64,000 nt of DNA from Nanobdellota archaeon (GCA_024654565.1 JANLHM010000009.1:89945-153944); one strand, 5' to 3'. Positions 10,191-20,743 are shown, numbered from the stretch's first letter. Numbers and translations are program-made. Notes: generated by a model from the sequence alone, not told the origin.

Positions 10191-12230
10191 TTAAATTTTC
10201 TTTCTTCTGAGTAAGTTAGCATTCCCGACAACAGTTATTGAAGAAGCTGCCATTGCAATTTCAGCTATAACTGGATGTAAAACTCCTGCCACAGCAAGAG
10301 GGATTGCAATAGTGTTGTATGCAAAAGCCCAGAATAAATTTTGCTTTATTTTTGAAAATGTTGCTTTGGAGAGTTCAATTGCTTGAACAACTCCTGTTAA
10401 AGAACCTTTAGTCAAAACGATGTCCCCAGATTCTATTGCAATGTCTGTTCCAGTACCCATAGCAATTCCAACATTAGCCTGTTTTAATGCTGGGGCATCA
10501 TTAATTCCATCTCCGACAAAAGCAACAAAAGTCCCCCCATTTTTATCTTGAATTCTTTTAATTTCAAGAGATTTTCCCTCAGGAAGAACATTTGCTATAA
10601 CTTTTTTTATTCCTACTTCCTTTGCAATAGCTTCTGCTGTTCTTTCATTGTCTCCAGTAATCATAACCGTATAATATCCCCTCTTATGTAATTCCTTTAA
10701 AGCCTTAAAAGAATCTTCTTTAACTGAATCAGCCACAGCAATAAGGCCCAAAACTTTTTTATCTTTTTCAAGGGCAAGAGCCATAACAGTTTTCCCTTCT
10801 TTTTCAAGGTCTTCAATTTTTTTAGAAAAATCTTTTAAGTTAATCTTATTTTCATCCATTAGCCTTTTGTTTCCAATTAAATATTTTTTATTGAGAACAG
10901 TCCCTTCAATTCCCCTTCCCCTTAAGTTTTTAAAATTCTTAACTACCTTGTAATTTTTTAAATTTGCATAGTTAACAATTGCTTTAGATAAGGGGTGTTC
11001 AGACAACTTTTCCAAGCTCCCTGCAACTTCTAAAAATTCTTTTTCTTTAACTCCTTTTCCCATTTCAACATTAGTTACTTCTGGCTTTCCTTTTGTAATT
11101 GTTCCAGTTTTGTCAAATACGATCACTTTGACATTTTTCATTGTCTGAATTGCTTCACCTTTCCTTATCAAAATGCCCCTCTTAGCACCCATTCCCGAAC
11201 CAACAGTCAAAGCAATTGGAGTAGCTAGACCAAGGGCACAAGGACATGAAATCACAAGAACCGCAATACTTGCCCCAAATGCAGAACTAAAATTTCCAAA
11301 AATGCTCCATCCAATAAAAGTCAAGATTGACAAGGCTAAAACTGAAGGAACAAAAATATTTGTAATCTTATCCGCCATTTTTTGAATCGGAATTTTACTT
11401 CCTTGAGCTTCTTCAACAAGGTCAATAATATGAGCTAAAAAAGTGTCTTTTCCTACTTTTGTTGCTTTGACATATAAAATTCCATCCTGATTTATTGTTG
11501 CTCCAATAACATTACTTCCCTTGAGTTTGTCAATTGGTAAACTTTCCCCCGTAACCATTGATTCATCAACTGAACTCTCTCCCTTTGTCACAATTCCATC
11601 TGTAGGAATTTTTTCCCCAGGTTTAATAATCATAATATCCCCAACCTTTACTTCTGAAATTGGAATTTCAATTTCAGTTTTCCCCCTTAAAATTCTTGCA
11701 TTTTTTGCACCCATTTCTAAGAGTTTTCTTATTTCCTGACCTGCACGCCCCCTTGCTTTTGCTTCAATATATTTACCCGTAACGAAAATTGCCATTATCA
11801 TTGCGGCAACTCCTGAATAATCTTGAACCGGTAAAAAGAACTGCAAAAATCCTGTGAGATAAGCGACAACAGTTCCTAATGCAATCAATGAATCCATATT
11901 AAAGTAAAAACTAATAAATCCCCTAAATCCCGATTTAAGTGTCGAAAGACCAACAATAAAAATTACAGGAAATGCAAATGTAAGGGAAATTAAAAGCATA
12001 ACCTCACTTGAAAAAACCATCATCCCAAAAATCAAAGGCAAAATATACATAATAAGAATTATTGGAATAGTGAGAATCCATCCCCATATTAATTTCTTTT
12101 TCCACATTTCTATTTCTTTTTCCTCAGGAGTTTCACCATGGTTGTGCAAATATTCTTTATCTTTTTTCGAATGATTCATATCTCTCATATTTTTTTCCAT
12201 TTTAACAATTTTCAATTTCTTTTGCTTCAT
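10191..12230 (-). CDS. copA: Copper-transporting P1B-type ATPase
   Basis: [43 protein letters not shown]. Confidence 0.95.
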
Positions 12231-12432
12231 ATCCAGCTTTTTTTACAGCATGCTTCAACTCTTCATCTTTAACTGTGTCTTCGCACTCAATAATTGCCTT
12301 CCTTGTCATCATACTTACATTTGCAGAATTTATCCCTGAAACTTTTTTCAAGCTTCTCTCGATGTTTGCTGCACACGAAGCACAATGCATCCCTTCAATT
12401 GTAATTTTCTTTTTCATTTTATAACCCCCCAT
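12202..12432 (-). CDS. Stand-alone heavy-metal-associated (HMA) domain
   Basis: [23 protein letters not shown]; GMxCxxC motif. Confidence 0.92.
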
Positions 12433-12578: not shown

Positions 12579-13037
12579 TTACTCCACAACCAGTGTTCCG
12601 GTTCCCATGCCCATTGAACAAGAAAACACAAAACTTCCTTTTTTAGTTGGAGTGAATTCTACATAATCTTCAGGAGTTCTAAGATTTTTTGAAATTCCAA
12701 AATCTCTTATCGTAAAACTTCTGTAACACCCTCCGACACTTTTATCAAGGTATATTCTGACAGGTTCATTTACTTTTACAGTTATGGTATTAGGGTAATA
12801 ATTGTAATTCTTGTAACTTAAAGTAATTTTTTGAATATCCCCTGAACCCCCTTCGTTAACTGCTCCTCCAGAAATAGTGGGGGTTTTAATTAAGAAAGCT
12901 CCGACTGCAACAACCAAAAGAATAATCATAACAACAGTAAACCAATTTTTCACGAGAATAATGTGCTCCTTGGTCCATAAACTATGAACCATATTGTTAA
13001 AGTCGTCAAAATTAAACTTAGAGAAATTATCCCCCAA
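12579..13037 (-). CDS. Cupredoxin-like membrane-anchored protein
   Basis: TM then NYYPNTITVKVNEPVRIYLDK…FVFSCSMGMGTGTLVVE. Confidence 0.8.
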   Translation of the reverse strand: MGDNFSKFNFDDFNNMVHSLWTKEHIILVKNWFTVVMIILLVVAVGAFLIKTPTISGGAVNEGGSGDIQKITLSYKNYNYYPNTITVKVNEPVRIYLDKSVGGCYRSFTIRDFGISKNLRTPEDYVEFTPTKKGSFVFSCSMGMGTGTLVVE

Positions 13038-13636
13038 TAGTCTTCTTTTCTTCCCCTAGGAAATTCTCTCATTTCATTATATACCATATAGTTTAAAGCG
13101 AAGATTATCACGGATGAAACAACAAAGACTAACACTCCTGCAACTCTAAGGTTATCATTAATCATCATAACTGCTGTCATCGCACCCATTATTCCCCCCA
13201 TAAAACCCGCCATAAGTCCTTCCATAACTCCCATTATCCCGCAACACCTACCGTTCCATACTCCAATAAAAATCCCAATACTCATTCCAACAACACTCCC
13301 CCAAAACATCCCATTAGTTGAACCAATAAAAAATCCTGGTAGAAATCCCGCAATCATACCGGATGTCATCCCTATCATCATCCCCGACATGCAAGCAAAT
13401 CTTTGATAAGCTCTTATCTGCCTTATCGAAGGTAAAACAATTGCATAACTTAAAATTGAAAAGAAAATAAAAAATCCATATTTTGGAATAAAGTTTTCAA
13501 TATTTTTTAAACTAAAAGAATACAAAATTGCAAATAACCCGAAAGAAACAAGAAGCGAGTAAAATATTGATTTTATTAGCTCTCCTTCAACTCTCTCCTT
13601 CCCATTCAATTCTTTTGTAAACTCTTTAACAGACAT
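12950..13636 (-). CDS. Gly/Met-rich multi-pass membrane protein
   Basis: SGMMIGMTSGMIAGFLPGFFIGS…EGLMAGFMGGIMGAMTAVMM. Confidence 0.7.
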   Translation of the reverse strand: MSVKEFTKELNGKERVEGELIKSIFYSLLVSFGLFAILYSFSLKNIENFIPKYGFFIFFSILSYAIVLPSIRQIRAYQRFACMSGMMIGMTSGMIAGFLPGFFIGSTNGMFWGSVVGMSIGIFIGVWNGRCCGIMGVMEGLMAGFMGGIMGAMTAVMMINDNLRVAGVLVFVVSSVIIFALNYMVYNEMREFPRGRKEDYWGIISLSLILTTLTIWFIVYGPRSTLFS

Positions 13637-13667
13637 TTTATTTTAATTCAACTTTCATTTATAATAC

Positions 13668-13686
13668 CTTTGGTGAAACTAATTTC
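13668..13686 (-). promoter_or_regulatory. Operator-like element copy 2
   Basis: Minus strand GAAATTAGTTTCACCAAAG followed by TATA-like ATTATAAAT, 32 nt from ATG at 13636. Confidence 0.6.
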
Positions 13687-13752
13687 GGATATGAAAATTT
13701 ATTCATATTTAAAACTTATTGTTTAAAAAATAAAATAAAAAATAATAAAATT

Positions 13753-14004
13753 TTATTTAACAATTTTATTATAAATCAATGCAATTGCGTAACCAAATAC
13801 AAATCCCCATATTGCCGCTTCAATCATACCCATGATTATCCCGAGAGGACTTATCGCAAAATACATATGCCATTCACTCATCATGTTCACCATCCCCCCA
13901 TAAGTTCCCGCATAACCAAAAAGCCCAAATAAAAGCATTGCTACTGCAGAAACAATTGCGAGAGAATATCCAAATGCAAGTTTGTTTAATTCTTGTGTTC
14001 TCAT
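13753..14004 (-). CDS. Small membrane protein (DUF5676-like)
   Basis: GYSLAIVSAVAMLLFGLFGY…PLGIIMGMIEAAIWGFVFGYAIALIYN; upstream AGGTG/AGGAGG. Confidence 0.6.
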   Translation of the reverse strand: MRTQELNKLAFGYSLAIVSAVAMLLFGLFGYAGTYGGMVNMMSEWHMYFAISPLGIIMGMIEAAIWGFVFGYAIALIYNKIVK

Positions 14005-14057
14005 TTTTCACCTCCTTTTTATTATAACGAAATCCCAAAATAAAAATGTTCCTATTT

Positions 14058-14267
14058 TTAACCCAAACATTCCCCGTATATTCCAGGATGATGACTCATG
14101 TGTTCATACCAATCCTGTTCAGTATACCCTGCGGGAACTGCACACTTTTCAGTTCTCGTTTTCCCTGAATCCCTGACTGCATCAATTATGCCCGGAAAAA
14201 AAGTAAAAACAAAAAGCAATAAGACTAAAATTCCAACAACAATATACAAAACAATTTTTTTATCCAC
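14058..14267 (-). CDS. Single-TM protein with Cys/His/Met extracytoplasmic motif
   Basis: TM then CAVPAGYTEQDWYEHMSHHPGIYGECLG. Confidence 0.65.
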   Translation of the reverse strand: MDKKIVLYIVVGILVLLLFVFTFFPGIIDAVRDSGKTRTEKCAVPAGYTEQDWYEHMSHHPGIYGECLG

Positions 14268-14721
14268 TTTTAATTTCCTCCATTTTATTTTTATGTCTAA
14301 CCATTAAAGTAATTCCCACCACATTAGAGATAATTCCAAAACTAAGAAATGCGGGTTGATATTTCATAAGAAAAAGTACTAAACCTGAAGCGCCTACAAG
14401 GGGGATTACATTAAGTAAAAAGTGAGTACAACACGCAATCATGCTCCCTCCAGAAATTCCTCCCGTTGTTGCAACTGTTCCCGTTAATTGTGCATGCTGT
14501 TTTATTGAAACAAATAATCCTATTTGAATTCCAAAACCAATCACAAGCGGAAAAATTAAGTACCATAAACTCCTTAAATTCAATAATGCAAAATCAATTC
14601 CCTGAAAAAGAGTTATAACTCCCACATAAAATCCAATTAAGATCAAACTTGAGAAAGCACCCCATAAGATGGACTTATCCTCCCCAGAAATCTTTCCGTT
14701 TTTATCCCCACAACAATCCAT
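14260..14721 (-). CDS. Membrane protein with ACCTH motif
   Basis: MDCCGDKNG…SMIACCTHFLLNVIPLVGASGLVLFLMKYQ. Confidence 0.65.
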   Translation of the reverse strand: MDCCGDKNGKISGEDKSILWGAFSSLILIGFYVGVITLFQGIDFALLNLRSLWYLIFPLVIGFGIQIGLFVSIKQHAQLTGTVATTGGISGGSMIACCTHFLLNVIPLVGASGLVLFLMKYQPAFLSFGIISNVVGITLMVRHKNKMEEIKSG

Positions 14722-14727
14722 TTATAT

Positions 14728-15168
14728 TTACCAATTCCTGCAACATTCTATTAATTTATTTACAAAACTTTTTGACTTTTTGTTTGAAAAAATAAAGATT
14801 ACACTAAAGATAAACCATAATCCAATTAAAATAAAAAAAGAGATTTTTTCAAAACCAGACAAAATAAAATAGATTATTGAAATGAAAGTTAACAATAAAG
14901 GAAGTCTGAAAACTTTTACTTTTTCACTAGCATTAGATTCGAAAATGTAAAACAAACCAAGTGAAGTGTGACCCATTAGTATTCCAAGAAGAATTTTGTC
15001 ATCAAATAAACCATATAAATTCAAAGCTAAAAGAATAATCCATGTCAAAGTTACAGATGCACAGATCACACAAAATTTTTTCTTAAATTTTTCAGAAAAG
15101 AATTCTTTTATCCCAAGTAAAACAAAAAAGAGAAGAAGTATTCCTCCGAGAACAAAATAAAATTCCAT
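14728..15168 (-). CDS. Multi-pass membrane protein with CVIC motif
   Basis: KKFCVICASVTLTWIILLALN. Confidence 0.6.
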   Translation of the reverse strand: MEFYFVLGGILLLFFVLLGIKEFFSEKFKKKFCVICASVTLTWIILLALNLYGLFDDKILLGILMGHTSLGLFYIFESNASEKVKVFRLPLLLTFISIIYFILSGFEKISFFILIGLWFIFSVIFIFSNKKSKSFVNKLIECCRNW

Positions 15169-16029
15169 TTAATTAATTACTTTCATGCCTGAATTTTCCC
15201 AAGCATTCATTCCCCCATCCAAATCATAAACTTTGTAACCCATCCCTTTCAATTTTTCCGCGACAATTCCTGACATTCTTCCACTTTTGCAATAAACTGC
15301 AATAGGTACTGAAAGGTCTTTTGGAAGCTGATCCATGTACTTTTCAATGTTTTCCCAATCTTCAACAACTAAATCGGTTCCTTCAAGTTCACCCACGTAC
15401 GGAGTGTGAGTATTCAATAAAAAAACATCTTCGTTTTGAAGGAGATACTGAAATTCTTCAGGAGAAAGATTTTCAATTGACCCAGTGGGGGTTGTTCCCC
15501 CTAATTCGGGTAAAGCAAACTGCAAAATAGTTCCAAAGAGAATTAAAAGAACTAAAGTCAATACAGTTCCTTGAAAAGGAATTGTTTTTCCTTTCCTTTT
15601 TTTAGTTAATGATTTACTCAAAATTGGGGAGGCAAAAACCAACAGACCCCCAAAAAGTCCGCTAAAAATTGAATAATTAACCGCATAAGTTTTCCCATAT
15701 TCCCCCATAAAGAAAAGATACAAGGGTCCAACTGCACTAAATATTGGAAGCAAAGGAAGAAGTGTCAGCAAAAAAACTCCAACAACAATTAAAGTTTTTT
15801 GGAATTTAAAATAATTTTTTTTAACAACTTTTGACATCCATAATCCCATTGACATTGAAAACCCTCCAACAAACAAAGCAACTACAACTTTACCGACTCC
15901 AAGCCATACTGCCCCAGTAGCTGCAGCACCAGCCCCGATTGTGCAAAGAGGGCAATGAGCACTGACTTCTCTTATTGAAAAGATTGCCAACCCCAAAAAA
16001 GTTAAAAATAAAAAATTTAATTTTTTCAT
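15169..16029 (-). CDS. Multi-pass membrane domain (CPLC) fused to rhodanese
   Basis: SAHCPLCTIGAGAAATGAVW N-term; C-term DVFLLNTHTPY…VYCKSGRMSGIVAEKLKGMGYKVYDLDGGMNAW. Confidence 0.85.
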   Translation of the reverse strand: MKKLNFLFLTFLGLAIFSIREVSAHCPLCTIGAGAAATGAVWLGVGKVVVALFVGGFSMSMGLWMSKVVKKNYFKFQKTLIVVGVFLLTLLPLLPIFSAVGPLYLFFMGEYGKTYAVNYSIFSGLFGGLLVFASPILSKSLTKKRKGKTIPFQGTVLTLVLLILFGTILQFALPELGGTTPTGSIENLSPEEFQYLLQNEDVFLLNTHTPYVGELEGTDLVVEDWENIEKYMDQLPKDLSVPIAVYCKSGRMSGIVAEKLKGMGYKVYDLDGGMNAWENSGMKVIN

Positions 16030-16034
16030 TGCAA

Positions 16035-16505
16035 TTATATCCTCATAAACTCAAATAAGCTCCTATCATGATTTACTCCGTATATAACAAAATCTCCTTT
16101 TTTTGCACCAGGCATTCCTGGACTTCCATTTGGCATCCCAGGCATCCCAATTCCTGCAATGTCTGGATTTTCTGTAAGCATCTTTTCAATTGCTTCTAAA
16201 GGAACATGACCTTCAACAAAGTAATCTCCAACAATAGTTGTATGACAACTTTCTAAAAAACCAGGAATTTCATATTTATCCATTATTTTTTTATTGTCTG
16301 TGACAGCGACCATGTTTACATTTGAATTTCCCTTTCCTTTAAAATACTGGAAATAAACTTCACAACATCCACATGATGAAGATTTGTAAATAGACATTTT
16401 TTCATCAAAGTCTTCAAGACTTTTTCCAGATCCACTTCCTGCTAAGAAGACCACTACAAAAACTACCACAATTCCAAATAAAAAATACAAAGTTTTTCTT
16501 TTCAT
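16035..16505 (-). CDS. DUF411-type metal-binding protein
   Basis: MSIYKSSSCGCCEVYFQYF…IPGFLESCHTTIVGDYFVEGHVPLEAI. Confidence 0.88.
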   Translation of the reverse strand: MKRKTLYFLFGIVVVFVVVFLAGSGSGKSLEDFDEKMSIYKSSSCGCCEVYFQYFKGKGNSNVNMVAVTDNKKIMDKYEIPGFLESCHTTIVGDYFVEGHVPLEAIEKMLTENPDIAGIGMPGMPNGSPGMPGAKKGDFVIYGVNHDRSLFEFMRI

Positions 16506-16525
16506 TTTAAATTATTTTAGATTAA

Positions 16526-16681
16526 TTAACAACCTCCAACCATTCCTCCTGCTGAGGGAGCTACAGCACCAGCAGTACTAGTTGCTGCCTGAACTCCTGA
16601 AGCGCCAACTTGAAAAACCAAAACTAAAGCCACAATAAACAGAATTCCTATAACTCCCCAGAGTAATACATTTCGTTCCAT
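16526..16681 (-). CDS. Single-TM small protein ending MVGGC (ORF track start 16780; RBS-supported ATG at 16681)
   Basis: MERNVLLWGVIGILFIVALVLVFQVGA…GGMVGGC*; AAAGGAGGT just upstream of ATG. Confidence 0.65.
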   Translation of the reverse strand: MERNVLLWGVIGILFIVALVLVFQVGASGVQAATSTAGAVAPSAGGMVGGC

Positions 16682-16769
16682 CTTTATTTTACCTCCTTTC
16701 AAGTTTTCTGAATTTCCATCTAAATCCTTGCAACATCCATCATGATTTTTCGTTTTACAACAATCCATT

Positions 16770-16997
16770 TTAACAGCCACCCACCATTTGGTTATTTACA
16801 GGTGAAGCTCCTCCTCTTACTCTTGAAGGAATTGTTCCATGCATTTCATAATTCATTATTTCATTTACACTCCACCCTGTTGTGTCTATTTCCCCTTCAA
16901 TTGTAGATGTACTTCCAAACCCTGCCTGAAAAACCAAAAATAATGCAACTATAAACAAACCCACCATCACAATCCAAATTGCAATATTTTTTTCCAT
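16770..16997 (-). CDS. Single-TM small protein ending MVGGC
   Basis: MEKNIAIWIVMVGLFIVALFLVFQAGFG…NNQMVGGC*; upstream AGGAGG. Confidence 0.75.
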   Translation of the reverse strand: MEKNIAIWIVMVGLFIVALFLVFQAGFGSTSTIEGEIDTTGWSVNEIMNYEMHGTIPSRVRGGASPVNNQMVGGC

Positions 16998-17090
16998 TTT
17001 AAAATTTCCTCCTTTTATTTTTATTTATTATATAAAAAAAAGGAAAGGGATGTAAAGACCCCAAAAAATTAAAATATAAACTGTTCATCT

Positions 17091-17753
17091 TTAACATCCT
17101 CCCACCATAGAACCACCTGAAGTTTTACCTTGCTCAATTCCTCTGTAAAGATTTGAAGCAAGATTCACATAATCCTTTGAATCAATTCCATTTTCCTCTA
17201 AAGCTATTGCTTTACTCTCATGAATTTCGGGGAAAAATAGAACTTTCCATTTTCCCAGTTCAGACAAAATTTCAATATCTGACATTTCGGGATTGTTTAT
17301 TAATAAATACTTTGCAAGACCCCTCATTGCATAACTGTGAGCACATCCACACGCCCTTTCTCCGTTAGCAAAGATGATTGAATTTGCTCCACAGCAATAT
17401 TCACAACTTATTGAACCTGCAATTTTTGTGTATCTATTCATCTCTTCAGAATTTAAATCCATATCTTCATATTGGGCAAGTTTCCTTATTGTTGCATCGG
17501 CAAGCTGGGGATTACTAGCAGTCACATCGTCATAACTAACTCCTAATACGGTCCCATAAATTGCTGGAACTCCTTTTGGGATGATTTCAGAAGCTGAAAC
17601 TGTTCCAATACCTCCAACAGACTGACCTGAAGAAACTTTACCAATATTAAATGCAACCACTAAAAGTAAAATTGCAATTATTCCAATCTGGATATATAGT
17701 TCTGTGTCGGGTTTTCCTCCTTTTCTTTTTTCTGTTACGGTTTTGTTCACCAT
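17091..17753 (-). CDS. Membrane-anchored PCYCGC-like protein ending MVGGC
   Basis: TM then CEYCCGANSIIFANGERACGCAHSYAMRGLAKYLL; C-term GGSMVGGC*. Confidence 0.75.
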   Translation of the reverse strand: MVNKTVTEKRKGGKPDTELYIQIGIIAILLLVVAFNIGKVSSGQSVGGIGTVSASEIIPKGVPAIYGTVLGVSYDDVTASNPQLADATIRKLAQYEDMDLNSEEMNRYTKIAGSISCEYCCGANSIIFANGERACGCAHSYAMRGLAKYLLINNPEMSDIEILSELGKWKVLFFPEIHESKAIALEENGIDSKDYVNLASNLYRGIEQGKTSGGSMVGGC

Positions 17754-17784
17754 GGTGATTTAAAAAAAACCTTTTATTTAACCG

Positions 17785-17803
17785 CTTTGGTGAAACTAGT
17801 TTC
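17785..17803 (-). promoter_or_regulatory. Operator-like element copy 1
   Basis: Minus strand GAAACTAGTTTCACCAAAG (contains palindrome GAAACTAGTTTC), 32 nt from ATG at 17753. Confidence 0.6.
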
Positions 17804-17849
17804 AAGAGGTGCTTAAATCCAGAAGATATAAAAACCCATTTTTGATTTT

Positions 17850-18347
17850 TTGAGTATGGAAAACAAACATGTGGGTTACCTTTTGATTGGAATTTCAATA
17901 TTAGTAATAATAATTGTTCTAATGTTCAACTCCACTTTAAAAGAGATTGTAACATCTAGCTGCACATTGGCTCACGGAGACTCAACGTCATGCCCAATGT
18001 ATGAAACAATAAACAAGCAGACATACATTGCATTAGGGGTTATAGGCCTTTTAATCATAGTCAGTCTAGTTCTAATTTTTTCTAAACCCGATGAAAAAAT
18101 AGTAATTAAAAAAATAAAGGAAAAACAAATAAAGAAGTCAATTGACAAGTCAAAACTTGAAAAAGATGAAAAGGAAGTAATTAATTTTTTAATAAATGAA
18201 GGAAATGCAGTTTTCCAAAAAGACTTGATGGAAAAACTTGAAATAGGTAAAGTAAAAATGACTCGACTTCTAGATAAACTCGAAGCAAAGCAGTTTATTA
18301 TAAGAAAAAGAAGAGGAATGAATAATATAGTTGTTTTAAAAGAATAA
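17850..18347 (+). CDS. Two-TM protein with C-terminal winged-helix domain; putative membrane-bound regulator
   Basis: TM–SSCTLAHGDSTSCPMYETINKQ–TM–linker–EKEVINFLINEGNAVFQKDLMEKLEIGKVKMTRLLDKLEAK; TATA-like GATATAAAAA at about 17825. Confidence 0.75.
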   Translation: MSMENKHVGYLLIGISILVIIIVLMFNSTLKEIVTSSCTLAHGDSTSCPMYETINKQTYIALGVIGLLIIVSLVLIFSKPDEKIVIKKIKEKQIKKSIDKSKLEKDEKEVINFLINEGNAVFQKDLMEKLEIGKVKMTRLLDKLEAKQFIIRKRRGMNNIVVLKE

Positions 18348-18824: not shown

Positions 18825-18883
18825 CTTTAAATATGAAAAAAAATTGGAAAGTTTACAGAGTTGAAAAGGAGGAAATAGAGTTA

Positions 18884-19654
18884 ATGAGTGAAACAATTCA
18901 AATAAAGAAAGATACTTTTTACAAGGGTTCAATTGTAGTTCTTGCTGTGCTTTTAATAGTCTCTATATTTACAGGAGGTTTTGGAACAGGAGGAACTGGT
19001 GCAGTGACTCAGAATCCGACAGGTGGAACTCCTGCACAAGGAACAGGTGGAGCAGCAGCAACTGCCAACGTGGGGGTAATAACAAATAATCCGGAACTCT
19101 TTCCAGCTTTAGGCCCTGCTAATGCAGAAGATGTGGTAATTGAACTTTCAGACTATCAATGCCCTTATTGTACTTTAGCTTCGGGGATTCCTGAATGGAC
19201 AAAAGAATCTCAATACCAACAGTATAGTGGTCTTATAGGTGCAGCCGGAAAAGTTAAGGAATTAGCAGAAAATGGTGAAATAAGGTTTATCTATGTACCA
19301 CTTGCTTTCCTAGGTGATGAATCAATTGATGCGGCCCAGGCAGCATATTGCGCAGGGGACCAAGGTAAATACTTCGAAATGCATGACGCTATTTTTGCAG
19401 CAAGTACTGGTCCAACTGAACACGATGGGAAGTATTCAAAAGCTAACCTTAAGTTAATTGCGCAAGGTGTAGAAGGTATCGACACAAACGCCTTCAACAG
19501 TTGCCTTGACAGCGATAAAAATAAAGCTAAGGTCGAGCAAGCAACAAGTATTGTACAAGGTGCGGGATTCCAAATTTCAACACCTCAATTCTGGGTAAAT
19601 GGACAACAGTCTCAGGCTTCCTGGACTGCAATACAAGCTGCAATAAACCAGTAA
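18884..19654 (+). CDS. DsbA-like thioredoxin-fold protein 1 (ORF track start 18833; RBS favours ATG at 18884)
   Basis: VIELSDYQCPYC motif; TM anchor; AAGGAGG before 18884. Confidence 0.9.
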   Translation: MSETIQIKKDTFYKGSIVVLAVLLIVSIFTGGFGTGGTGAVTQNPTGGTPAQGTGGAAATANVGVITNNPELFPALGPANAEDVVIELSDYQCPYCTLASGIPEWTKESQYQQYSGLIGAAGKVKELAENGEIRFIYVPLAFLGDESIDAAQAAYCAGDQGKYFEMHDAIFAASTGPTEHDGKYSKANLKLIAQGVEGIDTNAFNSCLDSDKNKAKVEQATSIVQGAGFQISTPQFWVNGQQSQASWTAIQAAINQ

Positions 19655-19727: not shown

Positions 19728-20047
19728 GTAACTTTTCGGGGTATAACAAAGGAACATATGTACTCCTTTTTATATATAAAATTTCTTGCTTTGCAAAATA
19801 ATTCTTGCTTCAAATTTGGCTTTGCTTAAAATTCTTTGCTCAACAAACAATTTAACAACTCAAATATTTATCTTTGAATATTAGATTTACCTTCAAAAAA
19901 ATTTGGGTTTAGTAATTTTAGGAACAAATAAACGGGGGAACTTGTTGCGAACTAATTTTAGGTTTTGCCTAGAGACATATGTCTCCTAGGAGCACATTTT
20001 GTAACTTTTCGTTACATTTATATAACAAAATTTCTTAACTCGAAGAA

Positions 20048-20743
20048 ATGGAAATAAAAAAGAAAACCCTCTACAAAATTTTAGCAGTGACAGTTGTGGT
20101 GGTAGTTTTAATTTTAATAATTAGACCAATAATTCCCACTAATGAGGATGGTGAAGGACTCTTGGTTTTTGAAGACACTTCATTATTTCCGTCTATTGGA
20201 CCAATTGATGCACAAAATGTCGTAATTGAACTTTCAGATTATCAATGTCCATATTGTGTGATGGTTGACGGAGGAGCTAATTGGACAAAAGAAACCCAAT
20301 ATATAAATCAGTATGGGTCTCTCATCGGCACAGCAAAAAAAGTCCAGGAATTAGCAGAAAATGGTGAAATAAGGTTTATCTATGTACCACTTGCTTTCCT
20401 AGGTGATGAATCAATTAATGCGGCTGAAGCGGCATATTGCGCAGGGGACCAAGGTAAATACTTCGAAATGCATGACGCTATTTTTGCAGCAAGTACTGGC
20501 CCAACTGAAAACGATGGAAAGTATTCAAAAGGAAATTTGAAAATAATTGCACAGAGTATTTCTGAAATTGACGAAGATTTATTTGCAAGTTGCTTAGACA
20601 GCAATAAAAACCTTAAAAGAGTAAAACAAGCGCTCTCACTTGCTGAAACGACAGGATTAAAAATTTCAACGCCCCAATTCTGGATAAATGGAGCGCAAGT
20701 CCCTTCTTCATGGCCAGCAATAGAAGCCGCAATAAAAGCATAA
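20048..20743 (+). CDS. DsbA-like thioredoxin-fold protein 2
   Basis: VIELSDYQCPYC motif; paralog of the upstream gene. Confidence 0.9.
   Translation: MEIKKKTLYKILAVTVVVVVLILIIRPIIPTNEDGEGLLVFEDTSLFPSIGPIDAQNVVIELSDYQCPYCVMVDGGANWTKETQYINQYGSLIGTAKKVQELAENGEIRFIYVPLAFLGDESINAAEAAYCAGDQGKYFEMHDAIFAASTGPTENDGKYSKGNLKIIAQSISEIDEDLFASCLDSNKNLKRVKQALSLAETTGLKISTPQFWINGAQVPSSWPAIEAAIKA

Follow-up and report, generated by a model that had tools for sequence, protein, structure and literature searches.

Why do two transcription units in the copper island of an uncultivated archaeon begin behind almost the same 19-bp word? In a 64,000-nucleotide stretch of a Nanobdellota genome (GCA_024654565.1, JANLHM010000009.1:89945-153944; hereafter the window), the minus-strand words GAAACTAGTTTCACCAAAG (17785-17803) and GAAATTAGTTTCACCAAAG (13668-13686) stand before these units. 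A preliminary description, made from this DNA alone, had taken them for a shared operator beside the transcription factor B recognition element (BRE) and TATA box, through which one regulator controls both units. Direct inspection confirmed the pair, its coordinates and its single-base difference, as well as the equal spacing to both start codons (ATG 17753 and ATG 13636), each of which lies 38 nt beyond the end of the palindrome. The perfect palindrome described in the first copy is present, but its extent had to be corrected to 14 bp (17791-17804). Shared control is now supported by comparative evidence, which identifies the repeated word as a real, deeply conserved switch site before copper-handling genes in uncultivated archaea. 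We lean towards a reading in which the palindrome TGAAACTAGTTTCA is a copper-regulon operator bound by a dimer of a divergently encoded membrane one-component regulator, and the copper-loaded dimer activates both units.

A conserved operator ahead of copper genes

With up to three mismatches allowed, the 19-bp word has two copies in the window and no others. Shuffled windows gave 0.15 matches on average, and two matches were reached in only 1 of 100 shuffles. The whole 771,678-base genome, which the preliminary description had proposed to scan, holds the same two copies and three 3-mismatch matches, and the reversed-pattern control also gave 3. There are therefore no random copies beyond the control level.

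The word is conserved well beyond this genome. Of 181 family genomes, 70 contain exact GAAACTAGTTTC, and only a handful contain the reversed palindrome. A composite of operator and BRE/TATA, with at most one mismatch, was found in 50 of 378 class genomes, while its reversed control gave 2 hits. In a broad contig scan the short composite matched named records of DPANN archaea, among them Candidatus Pacearchaeota and Woesearchaeota, but also many unrelated bacteria. It is unspecific at that scale, and our argument rests on the controlled counts in relatives.

Conservation extends to the orthologous operons, where its loss would have spoken against a shared operator. Unit 1 opens with a 220-residue protein whose orthologues occur in 16 of 92 genomes. 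All 12 close orthologues, the window included, carry GAAACTAGTTTC or a 1-mismatch form (the latter in L012 and L014), followed by BRE and TATA. Unit 2 opens with a 228-residue protein, and 17 of the 28 such operon heads fetched carry the site: 13 have an exact match at about +38, and four more, including the window's congeners L120 and L126, match 9-11 of 12 positions. The copies in the window differ in quality. Operator 1 lies between the 220-residue Cys-protein operon, downstream of it, and the divergent regulator gene, while operator 2 is imperfect, its half-site distal to the promoter being degenerate.

The spacing is conserved as well. When about 74 exact sites were read outward in 148 directions, an ATG began exactly 38 nt past the palindrome in 45, compared with about 2.3 at other offsets; the Poisson value of 2e-41 overstates the case because related genomes are not independent. 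Information content is concentrated in a T plus the palindrome, then A-C-M-x-A-A-G, then TTATA. The start codon follows the palindrome centre at a distance of about 44 bp, and BRE begins within 2-3 bp of the palindrome. The conserved site overlaps neither TATA nor start and keeps a fixed phase upstream of BRE. The BRE stretch itself is unusual, with G at -32 in 58% of operator promoters versus 9% of 342 neighbouring promoters. Judging from the distance between TATA and ATG, the transcripts are probably leaderless. Bacterial sigma-70 promoters and terminators showed no excess over shuffles, and Rfam elements were absent from the region, the only ones found being tRNAs elsewhere.

Some operator promoters carry a further element. 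In the interval that separates TATA from the start codon, at about -15 to -5 from the ATG, 9 of 55 operator promoters and 3 of 342 others have a TTTC(T)..(G)AAA-like stretch. Four loci outside the family (L318, L321, L324, L325) have a GTTTC half-site after TATA. A second contact site is one possible explanation for both.

Across genomes, the operator stands ahead of copper export and handling genes, as would be expected of a copper regulon and in line with the association with metal genes that the preliminary description had proposed to look for. The dominant targets are operons with CopA, HMA, cupredoxin and DUF411 genes. The first genes past the operator head these modules and encode the 220-residue Cys protein, the 228-residue five-transmembrane protein, HMA proteins, HMA-cupredoxin fusions or small exported Cys proteins. 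Exact sites lie at operon heads, and none was found in front of internal CopA genes. Copper-module or regulator genes occur within 5 kb of 62 of 75 exact sites, and of 44 of the 49 with an ATG at +38/39. Several of the remaining exact sites lie, by eye, inside coding sequence and are likely chance matches.

Table 1. Features of the copper island, in window coordinates, and variant palindromes at paralogous loci, in the coordinates of the locus named.
Feature	Position	Strand	Remarks
Operator 1	17791..17804	minus	perfect 14-bp palindrome TGAAACTAGTTTCA
Operator 2	13675..13686	minus	GAAATTAGTTTC, 11/12 of consensus
BRE/TATA, unit 1	17774..17788	minus	AAAGCGGTTAAATAA
BRE/TATA, unit 2	13657..13671	minus	AAAGGTATTATAAAT
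TATA-like element of regulator gene	17825..17834	plus	GATATAAAAA, downstream of operator 1; from sequence
Candidate regulator, 163 residues	17856..18347	plus, divergent	two transmembrane helices, loop C36-H40-C46-M48, C-terminal winged helix (Pfam DUF7343, MarR-like)
Unit 1 head, 220-residue anchored Cys protein	17091..17753	minus	no Pfam hit; orthologues carry operator
Unit 1, DUF411 protein	16035..16505	minus	
Unit 1, membrane protein with rhodanese domain	15169..16029	minus	
Unit 2 head, 228-residue protein	12950..13636	minus	several hydrophobic segments (five-transmembrane), no Pfam hit; orthologues carry operator at +38
Unit 2, cupredoxin-like protein	12579..13037	minus	
Unit 2, HMA copper chaperone (CopZ-like)	12202..12432	minus	
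Unit 2, copper-translocating P1B ATPase CopA	10191..12230	minus	TIGR01511 above cut-off
Variant palindrome GTAGAACTAGTTCCACGATACCTTTATAAG, twice	L086:9845, 11722		before DsbA-like gene and 220-residue paralogue
Variant palindrome GTGAAACTAGTTCTAC	L329:3504		beside paralogous membrane winged-helix gene
Variant palindrome GTAGAACTAGTTTCAC	L328:2954		beside paralogous membrane winged-helix gene
Variant palindrome CGGAACTAGTTCCG	L333:8581		beside paralogous membrane winged-helix gene

Three consecutive proteins of one operon in the window (16526-17753), of 84, 75 and 220 residues, all end in MVGGC and so share a C-terminal Cys tail.

A membrane-bound candidate regulator

The preliminary description had also pointed to a winged-helix protein, which it placed at 17850, as the regulator. 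Its candidacy is supported by co-occurrence, by adjacency and by a paralogue with a variant operator. The gene, however, starts at ATG 17856, where a MENK start is conserved, and not at TTG 17850.

The regulator gene is present in 67 of 70 operator genomes versus 31 of 111 without the operator (Fisher 2e-21), and 20,000 within-genus permutations never reproduced the association. Among CopA-positive genomes, the exact operator occurs in 51 of 75 with the regulator and in 1 of 18 without it (p 1e-6). Since the association persists within genera and among CopA-positive genomes, the signal is not carried by the copper genes alone. An operator site lies within 300 bp of 58 of 102 regulator genes and within 5 kb of 77, and outside the family the regulator adjoins 15 of 17 canonical sites. 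The position of the site varies: it may precede the regulator gene in divergent arrangement or closely follow it, which simple autoregulation does not explain. The identity of recognition-helix residue 133 (V/A) is strongly associated with that of base +15 of the operator (C/A). These raw counts (19/2 versus 3/20, p 4e-7) suggest co-evolution, but this was dropped as proof because the tree holds essentially one split and independent pairs are not significant.

The window protein matches DUF7343 at 30.8 bits (gathering threshold 27.6), and each of the 52 orthologues also matches this family. The window protein does not reach the gathering threshold of MarR (PF01047; 23.3 versus 24.6 bits), and the winged helix alone aligns with solved MarR structures. 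The predicted structure has two long helices, residues 3-39 and 47-75, followed by a winged helix at 103-161 (mean predicted local distance difference test score, pLDDT, 86). With DUF7343 and two long hydrophobic helices in one chain, the modelled protein would count as a transmembrane transcription regulator (TTR), a DNA-binding domain joined to at least one transmembrane region. The stretch past the second helix is Lys-rich, which would place the winged helix in the cytoplasm and the loop at 25-58 outside. In 52 sequences, Cys36 is kept in 51 and Cys46 in all 52, the intervening His in 39 and Met48 in 44.

A comparison with paralogues ties this protein family to a type of operator, and does so independently of copper genes. 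Paralogous regulators with the recognition helix PKSKVSRILDKLE (PKSKV-type) have the same R-RRGMTN wing, and in 4 of 6 an ACTAGT-centred variant palindrome such as GTAGAACTAGTTCCAC lies adjacent. Paralogues with another helix (SKAKLSYVLQELE) have the variant palindrome in 0 of 13. The resulting Fisher value of 0.004 is only indicative, because the grouping was chosen after the data had been seen. It is tempting, if still tentative, to see here a family of membrane one-component regulators in DPANN archaea whose protein-operator code can be read. One branch would sense outside copper through the Cys-His-Cys-Met loop and directly drive ACTAGT-centred operators, and a Cys-pair paralogue branch would use a GTRGAACTAGTTCYAC-like palindrome for operons of DsbA and Cys proteins.

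Beside the regulator gene in the window are tandem genes for DsbA-like thioredoxin-fold proteins (18833-19654 and 20048-20743), which share long near-identical protein stretches. An inverted repeat, TTGTAACTTTTCGTTACA (19999-20017), rare in shuffles, lies directly upstream of TTTATATAA and of the DsbA-like gene at 20048. A second regulator, distinct from the first, may use this repeat as its operator.

A proposed copper switch and its rivals

The operator, its fixed spacing and conservation, its association with copper genes and with the regulator, and the architecture of that regulator are all seen in the sequences. From them we infer binding, dimerisation, copper as the ligand, and activation. 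A dimer would bind TGAAACTAGTTTCA through its cytoplasmic winged helices, directly upstream of BRE/TATA. Copper would bind the Cys-His-Cys-Met loop outside the membrane, and the copper-loaded, DNA-bound dimer would most likely recruit TATA-binding protein (TBP) and transcription factor B (TFB) at both promoters. CopA, the CopZ-like chaperone, the cupredoxin, the DUF411 protein and the Cys-rich exported proteins would then be expressed together.

Several observations weigh against this proposal. The exact palindrome is missing from 31 regulator-positive genomes, 16 of which have a degenerate composite site, and an operator at the fixed distance is rare before the regulator gene itself. Within the loop, the two Cys are better conserved than His and Met, and paralogues have retained the Cys pair but not the His or Met, a pattern compatible with thiol-disulfide sensing. 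CopR of T. onnurineus, whose promoter is almost identical to its Pyrococcus furiosus counterpart, is reported to be a repressor (PMC7830388), and for this reason site layout alone cannot fix the sign of regulation. The same regulator on the same operator could therefore be a repressor that, bound beside BRE, blocks TFB and TBP until copper derepresses the units. MarR-like winged helices are mostly repressors, which favours that version, as do the 2-3 bp between palindrome and BRE and the T. onnurineus report. We nevertheless consider it rather unlikely. A site clear of TATA and start, in fixed phase upstream of BRE, is the layout of the activators CopR (P. furiosus) and ArnR, and a departing BRE is expected of a weak promoter in need of help. 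By position and by these two parallels, activation is probably the correct sign.

The signal, too, could be another one: envelope thiol redox, or a different soft metal (Ag, Hg), sensed through the Cys pair of the same regulator. The near-invariance of that pair and its retention in paralogues agree with this, and DsbA-like genes adjoin the regulator both in the window and elsewhere, one of them following the operator in L320. His and Met, however, are typical copper ligands, and it is these that the loop adds to the Cys pair; together with the predominance of copper operons among the targets, they make a signal other than copper doubtful. An unlinked global regulator, or a general factor serving this promoter class, might instead bind the operator and leave the winged-helix protein a mere passenger of the island. 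Regulator and targets often form one cassette, so their co-occurrence is partly linkage. Such a factor is improbable given that the operator follows the regulator among CopA-positive genomes, that regulator and site adjoin in several families, and that paralogous regulators adjoin a variant of the same palindrome. The two window copies, one base apart, might also be a promoter duplication or a chance repeat, in either case functionless. This is hardly credible: chance duplication was rejected on the shuffles, the whole-genome count and the family and class counts against controls, and conservation at both levels, near-zero controls and fixed spacing refute it.

Comparison with known systems

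Activation by a copper-sensing membrane regulator, as proposed here, has a parallel in CopR of P. furiosus, an activator of copA in vitro whose semi-palindromic site immediately precedes BRE (PMC7830388). The two systems share a copper regulon that includes copA, a regulator gene divergent from its target and a site directly upstream of BRE. The proteins are different. CopR is a soluble protein with an Lrp/AsnC-type helix-turn-helix, a TRASH metal domain and the motif TTNNCAWWWTGNNAA, whereas the protein described here has two transmembrane helices, a MarR-like winged helix, no TRASH domain and the palindrome TGAAACTAGTTTCA. Pfam scans of the window regulator and its orthologues found neither an Lrp-type helix-turn-helix nor TRASH, and TTNNCAWWWTGNNAA is absent from both promoters; the only two matches that the window has, at other places, are at chance level. 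MarR/SlyA regulators have an alignable winged helix, but here a membrane anchor takes the place of the remaining MarR fold.

In architecture the protein resembles ArnR of Sulfolobus acidocaldarius, an archaeal activator with two transmembrane helices and inverted repeats upstream of BRE (PMC6396743). ArnR and ArnR1 are likewise membrane-bound one-component regulators. Their transmembrane helices are C-terminal, they carry a HAMP-like sensing domain, and they use the motif TCGAC-N5-GTCGA to control archaellum and pili. Here the helices are N-terminal, the loop is a short Cys-His-Cys-Met stretch and the targets are copper genes.

TTRs are a known class, widespread in bacteria and archaea (PMC10269533), and our candidate resembles them in joining a DNA-binding domain to a transmembrane region in one protein. 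The main text of that paper mentions neither copper, metal nor DPANN and assigns no operator or regulon to the group. Neither the exact palindrome nor DUF7343 occurs in any of the papers that our literature searches listed, and these searches found no regulon described for DPANN archaea that are uncultivated. What is new here is thus not the TTR class but an operator and a type of regulator for archaeal copper, in DPANN. A class-wide conserved operator, regulator and target set make the proposal testable. Direct sensing of metal outside the cell by a membrane-bound archaeal transcription factor can be tested in vitro, with the pair of paralogue and variant operator as a natural specificity control.
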